From: Bryoerythrophyllum caledonicum
Taxonomy: Eukaryota; Streptophyta; Bryopsida; Pottiales; Pottiaceae
Direction of reading: 5' to 3'
Assembly: GCA_963971425.1 (NCBI GenBank)
Contig: OZ020515.1
Span: forward strand, 37,276,371 to 37,340,370
DNA length: 64,000 nt
A program made the position numbers and the translations under genes. Shown here piece by piece: positions 2,046 through 60,775 of this stretch; position 1 is the stretch's first letter; each line of letters starts with the position of its first letter. The notes under the pieces are model-generated. The model was given only the letters and a program-made list of their open reading frames with translations, made no database searches and had not been told where the DNA came from.

Positions 2046-2690
2046 CCCGGTCACTACACTCAATCCGGGTTTGCGGTGTCAGGGCCCGATTTTAGCCCTG
2101 ACACCGCGAAGACCGGCCCTTCTCCCCAAGCGCCTTTTCGCCTCCTTCCCACGATAACTGCCACTCTCGCCCAACTCTTTTTCGCGCTGCCCGTCTCTCT
2201 TTTCGGCACTTCTCGCCGAAAGCCCCTTCGCCCTTGCCTTCTCCGGATCACCGAAGTCACCTTCTCGCCCCCGCCTTCTTCGGATCACCGAAGTCCCCTT
2301 ATCGGCCCGACACGTGTACTCCAGAATGACCTGCCCTTCTCGGCGGCTTCAAACAGCCATCCACACCATTTCGTACGGCGCCGTCTTTGGCACGATCATT
2401 GTGCCGTGTAGAATCCTTTCGGAAGGGGAGTGATTGTCTGCGCCTGAATTGAGTTCCTCGATCACAATCTTCCCATACAGGACAGGTCGAATCGAGATTC
2501 TAGCGAGACGGCGCCACCAACCGTTGCCGATAACGGGGCAGCAGGGAGGAATTGGAGGCATCAAGGGAGAAAGAAAGAAGCTGGCGTGCAAGAGAAGGGG
2601 CTGGAGGACCTTGATGCCGCGTTTAGGGTTTGGCCCGTATGCAGACTACCTGAAGACACACGGTCACAAGGTTCTTCGGATGCGCGATTC
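2046..2690 (+). repeat. Left terminal inverted repeat of the MULE (~645 bp)
   Basis: Matches the reverse complement of 11093-11696 at high identity over its whole length, with a few indels. The largest is an extra copy of the GGATCACCGAAGTC segment near 2245-2300. It contains a perfect 13-bp hairpin (2073-2085 with 2095-2107). Its inner part carries a degraded duplicate of the transposase N-terminal coding region: the FGPYADYLKTHGHKVLRM segment at about 2625-2690 parallels FGPHADYLKKHGHKVLRM-like coding in the right repeat. Confidence 0.9.
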
Positions 2691-3222
2691 GAAGAATAAC
2701 GCAATCCAAGCTTGTCGCTGATATTCCCTCAGATTGTAGGTCCAGGCTAATCGGTTTAGGCGGCGTAGGCAATAATCATCATCGCCATCACCATCACCAT
2801 CAACATGAAACCCTAATCCAGGCATGGCAAAGTTTTGTGTGGCGGCACCATTTCCAGCACTTTCGAACTGTGTTTTTTGCCCTCTAGCAACATAGCCAGG
2901 ATCTTCAAGCTCTGCGTCAGCGATCGCTGCTTCAAAACTCCAGGATTTTCAAGGCTCTGCGTCAACGATCGCCGACTGAACTTTTCGGTAAGTTCCCTGC
3001 CTTTCTTGCTTTTTATTTAATTCCATTTCGGTAAGTTCTCTGTCATTCTTACTTTCCATTTATTTTCGGTGATGCATACGGGCGGTCCTTCTTCCATTCC
3101 GTTTCAAATGTGGGGCGTTGGAAAGTAAGCTGTGTGAAGGTGTAGGAAATTTTGCAAAGCGTCCAGGTTTAGGGTTTAAGAGTTTTAGGGTTCCCGATAA
3201 TCGTTTCTTGCGATAAGGTTTC
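2691..3222 (+). promoter_or_regulatory. Internal 5' region of the MULE Ulp1-like gene
   Basis: About 530 bp without a convincing coding frame, between the left terminal repeat and the first ATG of the plus-strand gene. It holds a short CAT/CAC microsatellite (about 2775-2803), a plant telo-like motif near 3170-3190, one exact CCGATAA (3194) and one GCGATAA just before the ATG. The promoter and leader of the Ulp1-like gene presumably lie here; no TATA box was assigned. Confidence 0.4.
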
Positions 3223-6200
3223 ATGTTCGGCAATGTCCTCCCTCGCAGGACCGTAAAAATGCCGAAGCGGCCGGTGTGTTTCTGCAAGCCACTGTTTGAT
3301 GAGATCCCGGTGGAGAACAAGAAAGGGATTCCGCCCACCTACAACAAGGAAACGGGGAGGATCGAGCACCTATTCGTCATTGAGAACGACCACATTTGGC
3401 GCGATAGCTGGGAGGTGATGGAGGCGAGGGACCTTATCTTGGAGCTGCATGGACCGGACTCGCCCATCGTACCGCCTGGACAAACCGGCCCCAAGCAGAT
3501 ACTGTGCATTCATTGCAACACGACGCACTAGAAGCACAGGTTCAACCTCCACCGGAACCATGCATTGTGCGAAGGGAAGGGGAAGGAGGGCGTGAAGATG
3601 CCCTCGTATCCCAATTTGGGCGTCAGGGATGTGGCGAACTTTGTGGCACGACTTCGGGATTGCCAGTCGGCGGAAGATGCAATTCAGGTATTCGGCACCA
3701 TAGAGTCGATAGCCACGAAGAGGAGGCCTGGAAAGGGTGCCGATAATGACGAGGAACCGAACAGTCGACGTCGAATTAAGCGCGGGAAGAAGCTGTCACA
3801 AGAGGGCCCTCCGCAGAAGTGTATCGCGGCGGCTTCTCGGAAAAGACCTCCGCCCCCGAAAGCTATGTCTAGTGACGATACTTCTTCCTCGGCAGAGTCG
3901 GGAGGAGATCTCAGCACAGATCATGAGGCCGATAACGCACAGACTCTGACTGTGCATGGCGAGAAGGGCGGTCTTCCGTCCGGGGATGATGCCTCTAGGA
4001 ATTCCGGTGCCGAGAACCCGATGTCGAAAGTCCGGAAGTCGGCACTCGCGCCGGCGCCCAAGAGGGATTCCTCCATCGTCCTCCGGAAGGCGGAGCTTGA
4101 GAAGCAGAATGTACCGAAGAAGGTGGCACAAGCTGAAGAGGCCATGAAGAAGGCGAGATTTGAAGAGTCCACGAAGAAGACAAAGGCATTCCGGCCCCCA
4201 GCAACGGCGAAAAGGCTTACGGGAATGTCTGTGGAAGAGACCGCTATGGCGAGAAGGCATCGATCCCCACCGGTGCAACAGCGGTTCAGAGAGACGAGTA
4301 ATGCCGAGAGACCCTCCGACTCTGACGAAGGAACGCCGATAACCTCGCACAAATCCCCCCAATCCTCGGCCCAGAAGGAAAAGCGACCGCCGCTGACATT
4401 GGCCAATATACTTCGGTTAGACTCTGATGATGGTGCGAATCCCGATAAGCGCCTCATTCTCCCGGCAAAAGGTAGCAGGGAGCAAACTTTGGAGTCGGAG
4501 AGGGCCGAGATGATACGGCAGGTGCAGGAGGACGTTGGACGCCTTTTCCCGTTGAAATTGGTGCCCACCCCCGAAAGTAAGGTACCGATAACGCCACTGT
4601 ATCTACTCCTCAAGCATGGTCTGCTCGACAGTATCACGATGGGCAGTTTACATTCCGAAGATGAGCTGTTGAAGTACGTCTTGTCCTTGATGGAGTCTGG
4701 AGGCAGCTACGGGAGGTTCCACCAGGCTCTCGGTGCCTGCATTTCCGAAGGGGTCGGCTTCGACGATAACCCTGTTTCGCTTCAACAGCTATCAACCCTT
4801 TGCAATCTGGCAAAGAATCCCGATTATAGTACAACGAAAGAGGTCTAGATAGAGGCATCGAGAGGAACGTGGGCAAACATGACGCATATGTTGGAGTGCG
4901 TCCAGTTAGAAGCGGCTTTGCAGGCCAAAAACGACAAACAAAAGCGGTGCAGGGAGAAGTTAGTCAGGATGGAGATGAGTAGATTTGATGCCGAAAGGGC
5001 GGTGGAGACAGAGGCTATTCGATGGGACTTCAACAATCTCTTCGGGTATTGCGCGATGAATGAGATTCTTCGACCATTGCTGCCCCCACTGCCATGGACG
5101 CATAACATTGACGAGGCTCGAGATGTCGTGCACCCTCTAATTTCTATCAGAATCGACATTGCCCCGTCTCCGGCTGCAGCTATGCTGTTGAAGTGTTACT
5201 TCGTTTGCAACGGGTTCTCGCGGGTGTAAGTTTTTCCTTCTCGCCACAAACTTGTCCCTTATTGTGTCTTCTCGTCCCTTATCGTCTCTTATCGTCCCTT
5301 ATCGTCTCTTATCGTCTCTTATCGTCCCTTATCGGTTTACTTGACTCCGTTGTTTTTCAGGGGCCGGAATATGTGCAACCCTAGCGTAATCCCCGGGCCT
5401 GCCAGCATTGAATTGTACGTGGACGCTCCAGTGGAAAATTGGGATGGGCCGTCTCAAATGTACGAAGTCCTGAGTCCCTTCCTCTTCGGAAGGGACGCAT
5501 CCGATATGCACCTCCCGTTCTCAGCGGCGTTCTTGCGGCTCCGCGATAATAAGAACGGCGGGCGAGATTCTGTGTTGCGCTTCATCGAAATGGTCCATGC
5601 TCGCACTGTCGTGGACACGGCAAGGAGTCATCCAGAGGATTTCGATCGATAGTGGTGTGCTGCCGATAAGGGTACCTACGAACACTGGGATACCCTGGAC
5701 GAGAACTGCTTGGCAAGGGAGGATCTGGACTTCATGTATGCCGGCTACGTTCCACGTAAGATTTATCCGATAACCCCGTCATTCATCTAACTGTTTTCTT
5801 CTTCATTTTTGGTATCCCCGTTATTTCCGTGTGACTAAACGATAAGGCTTTTGCAGGCACTGTAGATCCTACCGGGGCACGCAAAAGGGATCTTGCAGAG
5901 GCAGAGGGCAAGAACGCTGTGCCGCGTCTGGTAAAAAGAGAGTGGGATCGGCGAGAAGGGCATCCAGTGACTTCACATGACGAAATTCGGCGGGAGACGT
6001 CTACCCGAACAAGGGACCTTGAGGGTGCAGCCACCCTCTTTCACATGGACGAAGGAACCTCGAATGAATTCCGCGTCCAAAATCGGTTCCCGGGGAGTAA
6101 CGACGACGAAGGATCCCCCGACAAGTGTATGGACGAAGTTACGGAGGAAGCACAAGAGGGGCCTAGCGACGAAATACGTCAGGGAGGTGTTCCCGATAGC

Positions 6201-8210
6201 ATCCAGGAAGAGCCCGCTTCTACAACGGTGAAGTCACCGGGCCGTCCCGCCGATAACCCATCTCCCATGGAGTTTTCGTGGACACAAGCAATAAATGACC
6301 CTACCCTCGGCATTCCGGAGTCTTCACAGTCGCTGATGGGGCTATCTCAATTCGACACCCCTCTTCAGCATGTTGTGTTTGCGAGTACGGAGGAGACGGA
6401 ACCCGACATTAAACCCCACCATCTATCGTTCCCTCTGTCGAGTCAAGGTATTGAAAACCTGGACTCTACTGACAGACCCCCGGTAGTTCCCGAGGCGCCT
6501 TGCGTGACACCCTTGAAAAGTCATCCAATCCCAGAGAAGGCTCCCTCTCCGGACTCCGATTACGCTTCTCCACCAGGGCCTGATAACCCTACTCCTCCGC
6601 CAGAGCCCGAGAACCCTGCTAGCCCGCCAGAGCCCCAGAACCATGCCAGTCCGCCAGAACCCGTTGAGCCTGCTTCAGCGCCAGATCCTGATAGCCCTGT
6701 TCTGATATCTGAGCCCGATAAGCCTGCTCCTTCGCCAGAGCTCGATATGCCTCCTCCTCCGCCAGGACCCGTTCAGGCTCCTCCTCCGCCAGTGCCCGAT
6801 AACCCTTATCTAAAGGAGATGGACCCCGAGGTGATCAGACTGGCATTGCGCTTTATCAAGGAAGCACATGATTCGCAGTTGACCAGTATTTGGGTTTATC
6901 CTGGACTCGAAGAGCGTGTTCAGAACGGTTTTAGGGGAGAACAGAAGGCGGCGTATAGCTGCATGATGGAGAAGAATCGCGGATTATGTACTTCGGACGG
7001 TGTTTCTTGGAAGAAAGAGCCCTCGCTCTGCTACGAAGCCGAGGAGCATGACGCATCCACGATAGAGAAGAACCTCGGAATTATTGTAGAGGTCCTAAAA
7101 CGAAGGTGAGTGTCGTCGTTTATGTTATCGTGTTCTCCGACACTTGTTGTTTATCGGCACCTGTTGTCTAACATCCCCTTTCTTCTGAATTGCAGGCCTC
7201 GTTTTATTCACCCGAAGGACCTCACTGGAGGTATGAGGTTTTTCGGTCCACACCTTCGGCAAGCCGTAGATGTCTCGCTTGCACTACAGGACTGGCATTG
7301 CGTGCTCAAGGACAAGCGGGAAATGGAAGGCATATTTCTAGATTTCCTCCTTAGACATGTCGTCTACAGGGCGAATGAGCATGTTCGAATCCAGTATCAT
7401 CACACGCTCAACTGGTTATCGGCGACCTTGCAGTGCTATCTGGCGGATGAAGGGAAGGGTTGGGATGACATCGTGAGCTTTCTCAGCCGCTCGTTCCGTA
7501 GCACCACCAAGACGCCGAATACCCTAATCGTCCCTTACCACGATAAGGGTCACTGGAGCGTATTCGTCGTGGAGCAAAGGCGAACGTATCACCTGGACCC
7601 AGCGAAAGGCATGCACAAGGGTCGGGAAGTGAACAACTTCATCTTCCTTGTGCACATGGGATGGGCAACCGCGAAGGGCGTGAGGATCGGATCTCGGAGT
7701 TGGACTGAATGGCAGAGTCGATCGCCGATAAGGTTGCCTCTGCCTAGTCAGAAAGAAAATTGGGAGTGTGGTTTCATGGCAGGCTTGGGCTTCTGGCAGT
7801 ACCTTATCGCACGTGGTGGGCGCAAAGAGGCGGAGGAGAAGACCGTGACGGAGACCAAGTATCTGGACTGGGACGGGAAGAAGGCGTACCGATGGTTCAT
7901 GCAAGCGCTGTATACAGAGATTGTCGCACCGCATCCGTTCCACGATGCCCTTAATCTATGTGGACAAGATACGGTGGAGTTCGGAAGCGGAAGTCCGGAC
8001 GTAGTTTTCGTGGAAGCCGGTACAGAGACGACAAAGAAGAAGGAAGTCCCAATTCTCGGTATTTCGGAGACAGTGGGGGATCGTGATCTTCAGGGCTTCA
8101 ACGTGCTCACAAACCCACCAGTGACTCGAGGAAGGCGGAAGAAGTCAACCGCGCCGAAAAGCCCGAAAAAACCGAGAAAATCCAAGGGCACCACCAAGAC
8201 GAAAAAGTAG
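3223..8210 (+). pseudogene. MULE-borne zinc-finger / Ulp1-like (C48) cysteine protease gene, three in-frame TAG stops
   Basis: The phases close with exons 3223-5225, 5361-5755, 5857-7105 and 7196-8210, giving 1,554 codons including three internal TAG codons (3529, 4846, 5650). Upstream and downstream frames continue in phase across each stop, and no splice donors are nearby to remove them. The N-terminus has a cysteine-rich stretch (C-F-C, then C-I-H-C followed by His residues and a Cys) resembling a BED/C2H2-type finger, itself cut by the first TAG. A charged, low-complexity middle is followed by a Pro/Glu repeat (about 6560-6810). Exon 4 encodes the protease: His in GHWSVFVV, Asp in YHLDPAK, Gln in LPLPSQ and Cys in WECGF, the H-D-Q-C order of Ulp1/SENP deSUMOylases. 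A basic tail ends at 8210. The family normally cleaves SUMO; in MULEs such genes can also act in transposon regulation. All active-site residues are present, so only the upstream stops look damaging. Confidence 0.82.
5250..5335 (+). repeat. 10-bp tandem array TTATCGTCYC in intron 1 of the Ulp1-like gene
   Basis: TTATCG starts at 5279, 5289, 5299, 5309, 5319 and 5329, exactly 10 bp apart; a degenerate TTATTG sits at 5259. The last copy is the full heptamer TTATCGG. The array lies within the intron 5226-5360, just upstream of its pyrimidine tract. Ten bases is close to one turn of B-DNA, so the cores present the same face of the helix. The core is the same one found dispersed across the element. 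Confidence 0.9.
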
Positions 8211-8588
8211 GCGATAAGGGGGGGGTGTTGTACACAGGCGATAAACTCTAGGAATTTGTACAGATTAATAGGATGCCGATGTTGTACATTTCATTCATTG
8301 TAAATGACAAATTTTTCAATAGCGTACATAAATGAAATTTGAGACCCCCTTGCAGAGGCCTGTAAGTGGAACTTGGAATCCAGTCTTTGCCAATTATATT
8401 GAATGTTGAGTTTTAACTTCATAACTAAAGAAATATAACTTCACTGAAAATTTCAGTCACTGCATGGAACTTAATCTGTAAGCATATTATCGGCAGTATT
8501 CCACCGATAAGATTACTAATGGTTATCAGTGCAGGTTTGCAGCTGAAATCCTCTACCCTTTATACTCATCCACATCGGAGCCGATAAC
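8211..8588. terminator. Intergenic 3' region between the two convergent MULE genes
   Basis: About 380 bp of AT-rich DNA separates the stop of the Ulp1-like gene from the stop of the transposase gene. It should hold both polyadenylation regions. Three exact CCGATAA/TTATCGG motifs (8487, 8504, 8581) cluster here, the first two as an inverted pair about 10 bp apart. No coding frame was seen. Confidence 0.5.
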
Positions 8589-11324
8589 CTAAGTCGTTTC
8601 TTGAGTTAGTCTTTCGCTAGCTGGAACGGACCTCACCCGAAAACCTCTGGAATCCAGGAAGTCATGCAACCTTCGGAGCCTCATTCCAAGACCGTCTTCA
8701 TTTGTGGGGAGCGGTGCAGCTATCTCCTGGAGTGGATGAAGCATTCCGGCTTCGATTTCAGCCTCCAACCTTGAGAGGGTGGCGTCGGTGTTGCGCAAAG
8801 CTGCATCCAAGTGCCTTGCCAACAACGGTTGCCGATAAGCCTTGTCAAGTAGCTTCAGGACAAGGCGATGCATACGATCAAAGTTGCATACCCATGTCTC
8901 CCCTAATTCTCGAAAGTTGGAAGCCACTGGGATTACATCTCCAGTTTCGGTATCGGAGGGGACACCATTATCGGGGAAGCCCTCGGTATTCGGGTGTCGA
9001 CCATTGTCTTGGCGGAGAAGATTCGTCATTCCTCCTTGGATTGTGCCGCGAAGGGAGCCCAGATATCTAGCAATTTTTCCCTCCGCTAGGTCAGGTCTTG
9101 TCATTTTTAGGACCTTAACCTGGTGCTTACAGATGTTACCTTTCTGGGAATGAACACATTGGCAGACGGCCCATTCGGTGCATGGATTGTATACCGCATA
9201 CATAATGTGTCTCCTATTCGAGGATTTAACGTATGCAGGACCTCCCGACCACTCGGGCAAGGTGACCACATTATCGGGAATTGTATTTGCTTGGTTGATT
9301 GCATTGACCATGATCTGCCGCTGCCTCTTGTTCTTTATAAAACCGTTTAGCTTACACCAGTGACTGTAATCATACTTCTCGATGACATTTCCAGTGAGCT
9401 CATAAATAAGCCAGTCCATCCTTTGGCCGATAAGCTTCCTTTTGGATTGCCGGAGCACTGCTTTCATGTTAGAATGGTATGATTCGATCGCTGCAGTGGT
9501 GTCCTGGCCAGCATGGGGGATTTTCTGGTCTTCCACCACCCACATTTTGATTTTCGGGAGCCATTCTTTGTCGAAGTACTTCCAGTATGCATCAGCGTCT
9601 GGCAAGAGAGCCTTAGCTTCGCTGTAAACGTGCCGCACCCACTCTACCAAATTCCACACCTTATCGCCGGGAGCTCTCGCCGAAGGGTCTTGGAAGTCAC
9701 TAGGTGTCTCTGATACTTACATAAGTGAGCCCACAATTCGCAAGGCTCCGGCCCTCGTCTCCATGTCTTTCAACTTAGCACATGCATTCTTCTGCCACGC
9801 TCGACGAACATGCCAGAGACATAGAAATTGATGCGAGTGCGGCCAAACCTCCCTGCGATAACCCGACAAGCCGATAAGTACAATTCGCTGAAGCCTGTCA
9901 CCCGATAACGTAAGAATGTAAATTTCTTACCGAAAAGAGTTGATCTCATTATCGGCGTTGTCAAGTACGAAGGCACTGGGTCTCCAGTCCGGCCTTATCT
10001 GCACCAACTTCTACTTCAGAGCGCGCATCCAAGGCACGAGATCTGTTTGTTTGGATTTCGCAGTGATCACGAAAGCCACTGGAACATCGTTTCTCCACTC
10101 GACGAATACCATCATCGTGAAGAGCGGATACTGGACACGCAAGCAAGGAATTAAGCGGTATGGGAGTGAGTGCTCCTAATTTTTATACGGACCCTACATG
10201 GAGCACGGTAAAGGTATGTGTACCTTTTTGTTGTTCATTGCGAATGTCCCATCTATAGCAATAATGTTAGCGTGACTGTATTTCAGCATCATGTGCGTCT
10301 GAAATGGGGTTTGAATCCCAATTACGAAGGGTACGTTATCGGCATTCAGCACTCCGTCGACCTTGTTGCCCAGGTCTTGGTAGTAAAAAACCGTACCTCG
10401 GTTTTCTCGGACCCACATTCTCACACTCTCAGCGTCGTTGTCGTGTTTCTTGTATAGTTCTTGCGCACGGACTCCGCATATGTTGCGGATGTCCTCCATG
10501 CTAAGGAAATAATCCCGAGAAGGCGTAAGAATGCCCTCATCCCGTGCCTTCACTACCAGCTTCTGGTGCTTCTGTATTATAGCTGCCATCGGAACTTGCT
10601 CTTCAAATTGCCTCAGAACCCAAAGCCTTACTTCCTCCGATATGTACTTCCGAAAGCGGAGCTTTCTCCTCTGCACATTGTCCTTATCGTGGACGATGAG
10701 GCCCTGTGTGTCGACATGTTCGAAGCAAAAGTACCCTATCTCGGCGATATATGGTAGAAAATAGTACCTCTTTACGTAGAATCGACATTGGCAGCCCACT
10801 TACCGCTGGTATTCGATGTGGCAGTTCCACCGATAGTGCGTCTTCTCGCCGACGTTTGTGGGGTCGTTCTTGTCGCGGACGAAGGTAGTCTCTACATCTT
10901 TTCGGCCAGACTGCTCACCCTCCACGAAATCCGAGACCCTATCCCAGGGAATGTAGACGATAAGCTTGGACTGCTTCCTCTTCGATGATTGCGGATCTTC
11001 TACAAACCTCGTATCATTCTCGGCCTCCATGTTCCACCTAAGACATTTCCACGTCAAAATTCTTGGAGGAGGGTTCTGTAATGAATCGCGCATCCGAAGA
11101 ACCTTGTGACCGTGTTTCTTCAGGTAGTCTGCATGCGGGCCTTCCCGGAACGCGGCATCAAGGTCCTCCACCCCCTTCTCACGCAAGCCAGCCGGTTTCT
11201 TTCTCCCTTGACGCCTCCATTTCCTCCATGCTGCCCCGTTATCGGCAACGGTTGGTGCCGCCGTCTCGCCAGAATTCCCATTCGGCCTGTCTTGGATGGG
11301 GAGATTGAAATCGAGGAACTCCAT
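8589..11324 (-). pseudogene. MULE transposase (MuDR type, SWIM finger) with two in-frame stops
   Basis: Read on the minus strand from ATG 11324. The N-terminal part is a FAR1/MULE-like region with the CxC and H pattern of a zinc-binding domain (C-Q-C-R-F-Y...FCFEH). The catalytic core follows: first Asp in NIIAIDGTF, then after an intron (10131-10223) YPLFTMMV, second Asp in FVLDNADNE, the C/H block LCLWHVRRAW and a Glu in IESYHSNMK. The last exon (9659 downward) carries the SWIM finger CQC...CKH. Introns also occur near 9853-9930 and between about 9721 and 9660; the last junction is not fully resolved. A TAA at 10802-10800 and a TAG at 10013-10011 interrupt otherwise continuous frames. The residues needed for DDE chemistry are present, so the stops are the visible defects. 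Confidence 0.85.
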
Positions 11325-11696
11325 TCACGCGGAGATAAGCACTCCCCTTCCGGCAAGGTGCTACACGGCACAATAGATCGTGCGAAAGACGGCGCAGTAC
11401 GAAACGATGTGGATGACACTTCGCGCCGGCATCCGCCGAGAAGGGCGAGTCATTCTGGAGTACACGTGGCAGGGCGAGAAGGTGACTTCGGTGATCCGGA
11501 GAAGGCGGGGGCGAAGGGGCTTTCGGCGAGAAGTGCCGATAAGAGAGACGGGCAGCGCGAAAAAGAGTTGGGCGAGAGTGGCAGTTATCATGGGAAGGAG
11601 GCGACAAGGCGCTTGGGGAGAAGGGCCGGTCTTCGCGGTGTCAGGGCTAAAACCGGGCCCTGACACCGCGAACCCGGATTGACTGTAGTGACCGGG
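11093..11696 (-). repeat. Right terminal inverted repeat of the MULE (~604 bp)
   Basis: Mirror of the left repeat. The homology stops abruptly at 11093 inside the transposase coding region, so this repeat contains the transposase promoter, its ATG (11324) and roughly the first 77 codons. The same perfect 13-bp hairpin lies at 11635-11647 with 11657-11669. Two exact CCGATAA heptamers (11239, 11536) fall inside. Confidence 0.9.
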
Positions 11697-11706
11697 TACT
11701 CATCTG

Positions 11707-13619: not shown

Positions 13620-14471
13620 CTACACTAAAAGTTTCATTTAGTGTAATGGCACGAATAGTGTACTTACCTTAGTACACTAATTGCGAACGAGTTGACAAAT
13701 AGTGTACTAGTTGCAAACAAGTGTACTTTCTCAAAAGATTATTCGATCAAAATTTACTTTATCAAAGATTACTTTATCGGAGTACACTTTATGGAAATTT
13801 AATTTTTTAAAAGCTTACTTTTTCAAGAGATTACTTTTTCAAGTTTTACTTCTTAAAAAGTTTACTTTTTCAAATTTTACTTTTCCAAACATTTACTTTT
13901 TCTAAACTTTACTTTTTCAAAACCTTACTTTTTCAAAACTTTACTTTTTCAAAATTCTACTTTTTTCCAAGTTTACTTTTTCAAATGTTTACATTTGGAA
14001 AAGCTTATTTTTACAAAAGTTTACCTTTTCAAAAGGTAAGTTGTCTTTTTCCCCCGAATTAATGTTTTTCCCTGGTTCTTGTTTTTTTTCAAAAATGTTG
14101 TTTTTTCCTAATTGTTTTTTCCTAATTGATGTTTTCGCAAAAATGTTGTTTTTTCCTATTTGTTGTTTTCCCAAATTGTTGTTTTTTCCTAATTGTTGTT
14201 TTTTCTCAATTGTTGTTTTTTCCAATTTTTTCTTTGTGAGTTTTATTTTTTCTCTTCTTCACCTTTTTGTACACATAATTCTCTTCTACTTTCAATACAC
14301 TAAACGTGCACGAGTAAAAAAGTTAATATTCCAATCTTTACAAAAGTTCACAAATAGTGTAGTAGTTCACATTTAGTGTACTATTTTGTCACTACACTAA
14401 TTGCGTAGTTGACAATTAGTGTATGGGTTCGTATTTAGTGTCCACTACACTAAATGAAACTTTTAGTGTAG
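13620..14471. mobile_element. Inverted-repeat element with T-rich tandem core
   Basis: About 850 bp. The ends carry a perfect ~26-bp inverted repeat beginning CTACACTAAAAGTTTCATTT, itself partly palindromic around TAGTGTA. Motifs of the form (T)AGTGTA/TACACTA are scattered in both subterminal regions. The middle (about 13735-14035) is a run of imperfect 13-15 bp repeats of the type TTTACTTTTTCAAAA, followed by T-rich repeats of the type TTGTTTTTTCCTAA to about 14230. No transposase is visible, so this is non-autonomous. No clear target duplication was found. A related sequence appears inverted at the right edge of the window (from about 63372). Confidence 0.7.
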
Positions 14472-59100: not shown

Positions 59101-60775
59101 AAAACTCAACGTCCAAGCCCGGATTACCTGTAGCTTTTGAGAAGGTTAAGCCCCCGATAAAACTCAACGAAAGCATTAATCAGCATTTTTTCTGAGGTCA
59201 CGAGCTTCTTCTTGTTGAGACTCATGTCAATCATATCCTGAATGATGGATTTCCGCTCCTTAAAGATGCTCCTGAGCTTAGAACGCTGAGCCTCGTCATC
59301 TTCATCTTCATCATCCTCACCTTTATCGATAGTCAACCTGTGTTCAGTCTGAGAATCCTGCTGTAAGCGAGAACGGAATGGACTACTCTCACTGCCGTTC
59401 GTTGCATGGCTGTGGGAGCCAGTCTTGCGAAGCTGAGGTTCTGAGCCGAAACTTTTCTGAGGATACAATTTAGAAGCAGCAGCAGGTGCATACTCCGGCC
59501 CGTCGCTTTCCTCCGCTTCTTCAAACGACACTGTCTTCTTCTCGGTCTCTTCAACTTCTTCACTTAAAGTATCGAGTTCCTCATGAGCTCCGCTTAATAC
59601 CCTAGGAAGACGCTCACTGGACTTCTCTCTTCCAACCGACTGGATAGGTGAACTTTCATCTCCTTGAAACGACACCGACAAACCTAAGAGATTATCACTT
59701 CAAAGATTTAGCCGTTGAGTATGCAAAAGAAAGACCTAATTCAGGACGTTCGCTACTCGCTCAAGAAAATCCAAATGTCAAGAGAGAATTTCACAAAAGT
59801 AAAAGAAGCTTCAGTGGACCAAGAATGCATAGGACTCAAATGAGAACTAGAATGTCATACACACCGGCGACATCATCGGCCTCATCGTCGTCATCGTTAT
59901 CATCAGTATTGTCGTCGTCGCTGTCGTGATCCTTCGCTTTCGACCCGAACATTTCCTTCTGCCGTGCGTGTTCTTCTCGGAGCTTGAACAGAGTCAACAG
60001 CTGCTCGTCCAGGCGCTTCCCACGAGCAATGTACTGATCCTCTTTCATCTTATAAAATTTGTTCACCTTGTTGAATTGCGCATCCAACCGCTTAAAGAAT
60101 TGTCTGTCTTCTTCGCTCGGCTGAAGGGGATCCAGCAGCTCCGTCTCATACTGCTCAAACTGAGGATTCCCAAGACAATCTTCGTCTCTCCTGTGCACCT
60201 GCCGAGATTCAAGTCGCTCCACATTACTTTCCTCACTATCGTCACCACAAGTCTCGCTGAAGCAATATCAACTCGAAGCCAAAGACTTCAACTATACCTT
60301 CCCCTAAACAAGATGATTTCAGTCTTATGCAAGCAATCTATCAAGATATGGCGACAAGCTGAAAACACTTGACTTAACGGCCTGCAAATAATCACAACAA
60401 TTTCCAAGAATTTTTCAACCTAGTATGTGCGCAAATCGTACAAACAAAAATCACATCCCGTCAAGACTATCATACCACAAGGAAATCGTCGGGCTGCACA
60501 GGGTTGAGCGACATCCTCCCGCTAGCACCGGCACGCTTAATCTGGTTTCCGACATTGTGCTTAAACGTGGAGATATGCGTCATTGTTCGCGTCACCGTTT
60601 GGGTAAGAGTCTCCGTTCGTGTCAAGGCCGCCGCGCCACCGACGTTCTGACTCCTTCGCCTCTCCCGGTCTTCTATGACCTTCAGGACATCCCTCTTCAG
60701 AGCCTTGTAATTGCAGTACGCGTCCTTCCATTCCGGCACCAGCGACTGCTCCAGCTGCTTCGCAAACTTCACCAT
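56137..60775 (-). CDS. PHO1: SPX-EXS protein, PHO1/XPR1-like phosphate exporter
   Basis: Twelve exons close in phase: 60775-60476, 60252-59865, 59683-59128, 58964-58844, 58682-58553, 58352-58232, 58212-57855, 57691-57587, 57364-57167, 56988-56710, 56567-56428 and 56233-56137, giving 930 residues. The SPX domain begins [20 protein letters not shown] with NYKALKRDV, continues with [20 protein letters not shown] and closes with [17 protein letters not shown] and [12 protein letters not shown], which binds inositol pyrophosphates. A long acidic/Ser insert (about residues 205-350) sits within SPX. Membrane helices start near [15 protein letters not shown], and the EXS domain contains [40 protein letters not shown] and [28 protein letters not shown], its standard ending motif. 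The family exports phosphate across plasma or Golgi membranes. Start at 60775 is the first ATG and fits the conserved MVKF. Confidence 0.94.

Follow-up and report, generated by a model that had tools for sequence, protein, structure and literature searches.

Why does a single seven-letter word, CCGATAA, recur throughout one transposable element (TE) and almost nowhere in the DNA around it? The question is raised by a 64,000-nucleotide stretch of the moss Bryoerythrophyllum caledonicum (contig OZ020515.1, positions 37,276,371 to 37,340,370; hereafter the window), which carries a full-length Mutator-like element (MULE) at 2046..11696. We found that the word is strongly enriched in this element, that it belongs to a degenerate code, that coding exons hold more of it than their protein content accounts for, and that its total is maintained against mutation in related copies. 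Our preferred explanation, in which we place about even confidence, is that the word is a degenerate binding site on double-stranded DNA for a protein encoded by the TE, and that this protein probably counteracts silencing.

Abundance and form of the word

An exact count gave 30 copies of CCGATAA in the element, 20 on the plus strand and 10 on the minus strand, and only two in the remaining ~54 kb of the window, at 59154 and, as TTATCGG, at 13774. The core CGATAA/TTATCG occurs 49 times in the element, or 19 times besides the heptamers, against 13 occurrences in the remaining 54.3 kb of the window (0.24 per kb). A preliminary description, made from the letters alone, had reported about 30 heptamers, about 18 further cores and one heptamer outside. 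Our counts agree with the first two figures and confirm the outside copy at 59154, to which the one at 13774 must be added. Its list of positions also holds except for the copy placed at 7735, which lies at 7725. The exact copies are:

2299..2305, minus strand, left terminal inverted repeat (TIR)
2527..2533, plus strand, left TIR
3194..3200, plus strand, upstream of the accessory gene
3740..3746, plus strand, exon, A-D-N
3929..3935, plus strand, exon, A-D-N
4336..4342, plus strand, exon, P-I-T
4442..4448, plus strand, exon, P-D-K
4585..4591, plus strand, exon, P-I-T
5329..5335, minus strand, intron 1 array
5663..5669, plus strand, exon, A-D-K
5767..5773, plus strand, intron 2
6250..6256, plus strand, exon, A-D-N
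6715..6721, plus strand, exon, P-D-K
6796..6802, plus strand, exon, P-D-N
7151..7157, minus strand, intron 3; changed in 3 of 4 aligned copies
7416..7422, minus strand, exon, W-L-S-A
7725..7731, plus strand, exon, S-P-I-R
8487..8493, minus strand, spacer
8504..8510, plus strand, spacer
8581..8587, plus strand, spacer
8832..8838, plus strand, transposase gene; GCGATAA in at least 4 of 5 aligned copies
8968..8974, minus strand, transposase gene
9271..9277, minus strand, transposase gene
9427..9433, plus strand, transposase gene
9871..9877, plus strand, transposase gene
9902..9908, plus strand, transposase gene
9949..9955, minus strand, transposase gene
10336..10342, minus strand, transposase gene
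11239..11245, minus strand, right TIR
11536..11542, plus strand, right TIR; CCGAAAA in 4 of 4 aligned copies

Dinucleotide shuffling of the element (1000 runs) yielded a mean of 1.07 CCGATAA (standard deviation 1.05, maximum 6), and the most frequent 7-mer of any kind averaged 8 and never exceeded 11 in 200 shuffles, which rules out composition as the cause of the copy number. Genome-wide abundance was ruled out as well, since the 437.36 Mb of the assembly (894 contigs) contain 28,103 CCGATAA, or 0.62 per 9.65 kb, leaving the element ~48-fold enriched. Both controls had been proposed in the preliminary description, and the excess survives them. Furthermore, five 9.65-kb tiles to the right of the element contain 1, 0, 0, 0 and 1 copies, and the flanks to the left of 14 TIR copies (20.9 kb) contain no CCGATAA and three CGATAA. 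Within the element the word is evenly spread: ten equal bins hold 3, 4, 4, 10, 3, 6, 5, 5, 6 and 3 CGATAA, and the widest gap free of CGATAA is 667 bp. Helical phasing of the dispersed sites was considered and set aside as unconvincing, 21 periods from 9.5 to 11.5 bp giving a single value of 5.1 at 11.1 bp.

The word tolerates some changes and not others. Among its single-base variants, the element has 12 ACGATAA, 7 GCGATAA and no TCGATAA, 10 each of CCGAAAA and CCGAGAA, and 2 CCGACAA; all other single changes occur 0 to 3 times each. Alignment of the 88 VCGADAA sites of the element showed a preceding G in 50 and a following G or C in 68, and VCGADAAS reaches 68 occurrences where the 52 kb to the right of the element would predict 4.1. 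CCGATAA is one form of a degenerate motif, about G-V-CGA-D-AA-S (VCGADAA with flanking G and S), and the base-specific pattern of tolerance looks like a protein footprint.

Such a footprint could belong to a host transcription factor (for instance a GATA-core or MYB-related one), the sites acting as promoters, enhancers or insulators that keep the element expressed. Words of the GATAA type can be read by plant transcription factors, the core found here is such a word, TIRs and introns are usual regulatory places, and binding by a protein of the element itself is something that we infer. We nevertheless find this explanation unlikely. CCGATAA is not enriched genome-wide, where its reversed form AATAGCC is commoner (37,651 versus 28,103), and a transcription activator would hardly need coding exons covered throughout the element. 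Moreover, six other MULE loci (L042-L047, six of at least 138 matches to PF10551 from 150 scored of 384 candidates) have 0, 0, 2, 2, 0 and 0 CCGATAA (9, 4, 8, 5, 2 and 9 VCGADAA), as a family-specific reader predicts.

Sequence classes, exons and tandem repeats

The element is a MULE, as shown by its TIRs, a target-site duplication within the 8-11 bp range and a transposase domain. Its features are:

2046..11696, full-length MULE copy of 9651 bp, flanked by the direct repeat TACTCATCTG
2036-2045 and 11697-11706, direct repeat TACTCATCTG (target-site duplication)
2046..2690, plus strand, left TIR of ~645 bp, containing ACGATAA and CGAGAA variants in addition to heptamers at 2299 and 2527
3223..5226, plus strand, accessory gene exon 1, with in-frame TAG at 3529 and 4846
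5227..5361, plus strand, accessory gene intron 1, GT...AG, rich in the motif
5254..5334, minus strand, 10-bp tandem array with GTCCCTTATC unit in intron 1, with six TTATCG in the window copy
5362..5756, plus strand, accessory gene exon 2, with in-frame TAG at 5650
5858..7106, plus strand, accessory gene exon 3
6564..6806, plus strand, 27-bp coding minisatellite in exon 3, consensus unit with CCCGATAAC, the motif being in frame as P-D-N
7197..8210, plus strand, accessory gene exon 4, with a possible, weak Ulp1/SENP-like C48 protease domain (H-D-Q-C order by eye)
8589..11324, minus strand, MULE transposase gene with introns, SWIM-like CxC..CxH by eye
11083..11696, minus strand, right TIR, with heptamers at 11239 and 11536

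The TIR arms are in register over 225, 82, 40, 231 and 59 nt. The joined exon pieces of the transposase matched PF10551 (E 9.6e-9, 36 bits, cut-off 27.6); single pieces gave no match to this family. The four-exon accessory gene, on the strand opposite the transposase, is a prediction from reading frames and GT-AG sites. A near-perfect 16-bp inverted repeat with arms 9 bp apart (GCGGTGTCAGGGC...GCCCTGACACCGC) lies near both element ends, at 2070-2110 and 11632-11672.

All classes of sequence carry the word. CGATAA occurs at 4.0 per kb in TIRs, 7.7 in spacer and untranslated regions, 3.2 in accessory exons, 30.7 in introns and 4.8 in the transposase gene; the corresponding densities of VCGADAA are 11.9 in TIRs, 9.9 in spacer, 6.9 in accessory exons, 36.8 in introns and 8.0 in the transposase gene. 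Sites in both TIRs, with a VCGADAA density above that of accessory exons, transposase gene and spacer, are what one would expect if internal sites helped a MURA-like transposase to find, coat or pair the element ends, and two or more heptamers persist in the terminal 755 bp of 22 of 30 TIR loci. However, introns are richer still in VCGADAA, CGATAA is scarcer in TIRs than in spacer or transposase gene, and transposition needs the ends, not the exons. We therefore regard a transposase-binding site as improbable.

Eleven of the 30 heptamers lie in accessory exons and eight in the transposase gene (exons and introns pooled). The accessory-exon cores fall in different frames, ten reading D-N or D-K, three I-T or I-R and two being reversed. 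When codons were shuffled synonymously, keeping protein and codon usage, the accessory exons retained on average 1.35 CCGATAA (maximum 6 in 3000 shuffles) against 11 observed, and 8.4 VCGADAA (maximum 19) against 32 observed. Because the shuffles fall this far short, we conclude that the accessory exons carry the motif at the DNA level; together with the mixed frames, they rule out a protein-level cause. A signal in RNA is disfavoured by the occurrence of the motif in both orientations, in introns and in spacers, and since it also lies in TIRs and in genes on opposite strands, double-stranded DNA is favoured over RNA. The preliminary description had placed the word in exons, introns, both TIRs and spacer, on both strands and in several frames, and had assigned the constraint to DNA or RNA rather than protein; the position classes and synonymous shuffles support it, and the choice can now be narrowed towards double-stranded DNA.

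Two tandem repeats that bear the motif change in length between copies of the element. In the intron 1 array most units contain TTATCG, and the number of TTATCG ranged from 1 to 9 among the 10 of 12 copies (window included) with a matched intron, whose matched stretch measured 90 to 190 nt; L038 and L040 had no match. In exon 3, the 27-bp repeat has one more unit in L032 than in the window, and at 34000161-34000437 of contig C1 eleven CCGATAA follow each other at 27-bp spacing.

A search for the fixed-spacing pattern CCGATAANNNNNNNCCGATAA returned 0 matches (reversed control, 2), and one for clusters of the form CCGATAAN{0,25}CCGATAA returned 410 (reversed control, 77). Judged by eye, the cluster matches listed, the first ~100 of the 410, were mostly the family's own 27-bp coding repeat, transposase exon and intron array, and among them no clear second family using CCGATAA appeared. 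At the start of contig C1 (2012-10206), CCGATAA recurs with a 3358-bp period, probably in a tandem repeat of another kind.

Related copies of the element

The genome contains at least 40 matches to the TIR at 95% identity or more, window included (from 491 first-look candidates), and at least 109 matches to the transposase at 89-100% identity (from 828 candidates); the latter, being the best candidates only, leave the range from ~46% to 89% identity uncovered. Eleven copies (L031-L041) were taken as ~10-kb stretches, some of them cut or interrupted and one (L037) containing an N run. CCGATAA occurs 23 to 32 times in nine of the eleven; L038 and L040, each alignable over only about half its length, have 20 and 19.

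For the four diverged copies L038-L041, which are 88-90% identical to the window element in aligned bases (L039 and L041 differing from it by 11-12%), we simulated neutral change from the window element with substitution rates by trinucleotide context (400 runs each). The observed number of CCGATAA exceeded every run in all four: 28 versus 13.4 expected in L039 (maximum 22), 22 versus 11.2 in L041 (maximum 20), 17 versus 8.5 in L040 (maximum 14) and 16 versus 8.4 in L038 (maximum 15). The excess was smaller in the close copies L033 and L035, where 2 and 3 of 400 simulations reached the observed number. Ranked among 109 words, CCGATAA was second in L039 (z 4.7) and fourth in L041 (z 3.8). The preliminary description had allowed that motif sites might mutate as fast as their surroundings; at 10-12% divergence the totals speak against this, single-site tests being weaker.

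Variability at individual sites was scored across 29 loci, namely L031-L035 and 24 of the 30 TIR loci (the window and five duplicates of fetched copies being left out), sites in related copies not being independent. The ATAA core was less variable than other A/T positions for [ACG]CGATAA (7/196 versus 401/4372, p 0.0046), for the exact word (4/120 versus 405/4460, p 0.023) and for VCGADAA (21/352 versus 392/4233, p 0.041), as was the motif CG of [ACG]CGATAA relative to other CG (14/98 versus 305/1161, p 0.0076). Substitutions between copies partly swap one accepted form for another, as CCG to GCG at 8832 and GATAA to GAAAA at 11536. Of the window sites, 10 were lost in L039 and 15 in L041, through a single C-to-T or G-to-A change at the CG in 3 and 4 cases and a change of the first C to T in 2 and 3, a pattern expected of old methylated copies.

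Could mutational or copying processes (slippage, gene conversion, or a bias in composition or codon use) have multiplied a word with no function? Slippage in tandem repeats indeed adds copies in intron 1 and in the 27-bp repeat of exon 3. Yet the exon copies stand in varied contexts and frames that neither dinucleotide nor synonymous controls reproduce, the exact word exceeds the context-matched neutral expectation in all four diverged copies, and unaligned DNA in the fetched copies appears without it. The non-aligning stretches of L034 (2336 bp) and L036 (1765 bp) contain no CGATAA, and L037, L038 and L040 have two each in unaligned stretches (505; 644 and 3892; and 4339 bp, respectively) that include, in addition, a 276-279 bp transposase segment missing from the window; since L033 shows two for this segment alone, the other unaligned stretches appear to be free of the core. 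This explanation is largely refuted by the controls, and we give it little credence. In L038, where the 3892-bp unaligned stretch adjoins element genes, the most frequent 7-mers (CACGAAG, 26) suggest a tandem repeat somewhere in the locus.

Still less credible, to the point of being very improbable, is that the host reads the word as a mark for silencing or excision, a signal whose spread along with the element would account for the persistence of copies. The word does contain a methylatable CG (CCG in its commonest form), but losing such a mark would benefit the element, and the word is instead kept above neutral expectation.

Candidate readers and known systems

These observations are consistent with recognition of about G-V-CGA-D-AA-S by a sequence-specific protein that binds double-stranded DNA. 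The reader would probably be encoded by the element, most likely as the accessory protein, which resembles zinc-finger proteins by eye and possibly ends in a Ulp1-like domain, or possibly as the transposase. CGATAA cores spaced at about 200 bp on average would mark the whole element body as the reader's own target, and the reader may act over the full length, most likely to lift or prevent silencing by the host (DNA methylation), in the manner of VANC proteins on VANDAL elements. We consider the pattern real, strong and unusual, and this mechanism plausible.

The accessory product looks like a C2HC/BED zinc finger at its N-terminus by eye, no Pfam family matching above cut-off, and carries a 9-residue repeat. 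Exon 4 matched PF02902 (E 0.048, 13.9 bits, below the cut-off of 20.7) and SENP2 (E 0.093) weakly, and a single-sequence fold prediction for it was uninformative (mean predicted local distance difference test score 36.3, predicted template modelling score 0.24). The window copy is probably non-autonomous, because its accessory gene has in-frame stops at 3529, 4846 and 5650 and ~276 bp are missing near 10797 in the transposase region. This segment, present in L031, L032, L033 and L035, was read as part of an intron with its acceptor, and holds two more motifs, readable in L031; the alignments flanking the gap overlap by 5 bp.

Several results weigh against a binding site of this kind. TCGATAA, absent from the window copy, occurs 0, 1, 0, 3, 2 and 3 times in L036-L041. 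No significant reduction in variability was seen at the motif CG of the exact word (10/60 versus 309/1200, p 0.13) or of VCGADAA (37/176 versus 281/1080, p 0.19), and only a marginal one at synonymous third positions within motifs (4/30 versus 401/1460, p 0.098). Among motif Asp codons the change from GAT to GAC was commoner (3/10 sites) than elsewhere (1/42). For VCGADAA the neutral simulation reached the observed number in 1 and 5 of 400 runs in L040 and L038, versus none in L039 and L041. The 109 control words themselves averaged z 0.96 in L039 and 0.94 in L041, and because control words also outlast the simulation, rate differences along the element must inflate the scores; in L041, CCCCTTC and AAGAAGG outscored CCGATAA. 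Retention of single sites, compared with CG-matched words, was 20/30 from the window element to L039 (p 0.06; reverse 20/28, p 0.054), 15/30 to L041 (p 0.26; reverse 15/22, p 0.029), 10/18 to L038 (p 0.48; reverse 11/16, p 0.21) and 15/18 to L040 (p 0.001; reverse 15/17, p 0.001), so that forward retention was clearly raised in only one of the four diverged copies. As the test on totals is strong and single-site retention less decisive, the total appears to be held up by keeping and replacing sites. At the protein level, neither DUF1985 nor DUF287 was found in the four accessory exons at Pfam E up to 10, a search whose filters drop most matches above about 0.1, so that a very divergent form may have escaped it, and the part of the accessory protein encoded at 3532-4845, when compared with its counterpart in L043, gave no meaningful match (best E 0.02). 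Finally, unlike the noncoding sites described for VANC21, the word also fills exons, TIRs and spacer.

In four of the six other MULE loci the transposase is flanked on either side by repeats with different words, which lie beyond the open reading frames read and are apparently noncoding:

L042, 2319-2720 and 6195-8050, AATACCCGTCAC and 18 ACCCGTCA, the sides being partly inverted repeats of each other
L043, 2513-2820 and 6575-7428, AATACCCATCAC (9 ACCCATCA) and AATAACCATCGC-like (13 CCATCGC)
L044, 2937-3096 and 6214-6370, more modest, AATACCCGTCA (4 ACCCGTCA; 6 ACCCGTC)
L045, 3437-3595 and 6810-7035, more modest, AAACGTCAC (7 AACGTCAC; 6 ACGTCAC)

As sole control, an order-2 Markov model predicts ~0.1 to 1 occurrences of each word per locus. 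Their layout is as described for VANC targets. The remaining two loci showed a CCCCGT simple repeat (L046) and no clear word (L047). Encoded opposite the transposase, the accessory proteins of L043 (954-1703) and L044 (1491-2249) are homologous (26% identity, E 2e-17 in a single comparison) and have a Cys/His-rich N-terminus by eye, with no Pfam match above cut-off; they are candidate readers of the words at their own loci.

We tentatively extend this to a wider proposal, which we hold with less confidence than the binding site itself: MULEs of this plant genome may possess short DNA passwords, specific to the family and recognised by accessory proteins of the elements themselves. The password of the CCGATAA family would stand everywhere, including in coding exons that double as an anti-silencing array, and VANC-like anti-silencing would have been invented repeatedly with unrelated proteins. 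If true, a second and apparently unrelated case would make a general arms-race strategy testable, helped by a readable code, at least 109 transposase copies and other MULE loci with other words in one genome. The codes in exons would reveal coding sequence under selection for an address at the DNA level, and a short specific address together with its reader would lend itself to targeted epigenome editing.

Parallels exist outside MULEs. TnpA of maize Spm/En, a TE-encoded protein, binds many subterminal 12-bp sites and counteracts methylation, and our preferred explanation likewise supposes many copies of a short word in the reader's own element; Spm/En, however, belongs to the CACTA superfamily and its sites are only subterminal. 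In C. elegans, periodic A/T clusters (PATC) run through whole genes and protect them from silencing. The word resembles PATC in being spread through whole genes, and differs in being a family-specific word that would serve as a transposon code.

The closest known system among the literature considered is the anti-silencing of VANDAL21 by VANC21 and of VANDAL6 by VANC6 in Arabidopsis MULEs (PMC5735166, PMC10398659). The target of VANC21 is YAGTATTAY in noncoding parts of VANDAL21, exon probes being bound much less; tandem repeats with the motif are found in introns of VANC21 and VANB21 as well as upstream of VANA21, and VANDAL families differ from one another in motif and binding protein (PMC5735166). 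VANC6 uses AGTTGTCC/AC, VANC targets evolve via tandem repeats in introns and upstream regions, and methylation loss extends along the entire element (PMC5735166, PMC10398659, PMC6446971). In common with these elements, ours is a MULE with a short word that is specific to its family and highly enriched over the genome, repeats bearing the motif in a noncoding accessory-gene intron that vary in length between copies, and peptide repeats in the accessory protein; different MULE families again carry different words. It differs in its word (VCGADAA, not YAGTATTAY or AGTTGTCC/AC), in an accessory product with at most a weak Ulp1-like domain and neither DUF found, and in its ~645-bp TIRs. The likeness is drawn from sequence, and the element is not established as a member of that system. 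Among the literature matches listed, none looked related to CCGATAA itself by title, and those on Mutator-like anti-silencing with a short motif and DNA methylation were, by listings and abstract starts, VANDAL work only. From Arabidopsis VANDAL elements it is already known that a protein encoded by a transposon can counteract silencing in a sequence-specific manner, and the element described here plausibly represents an apparently unrelated variant with a readable code.

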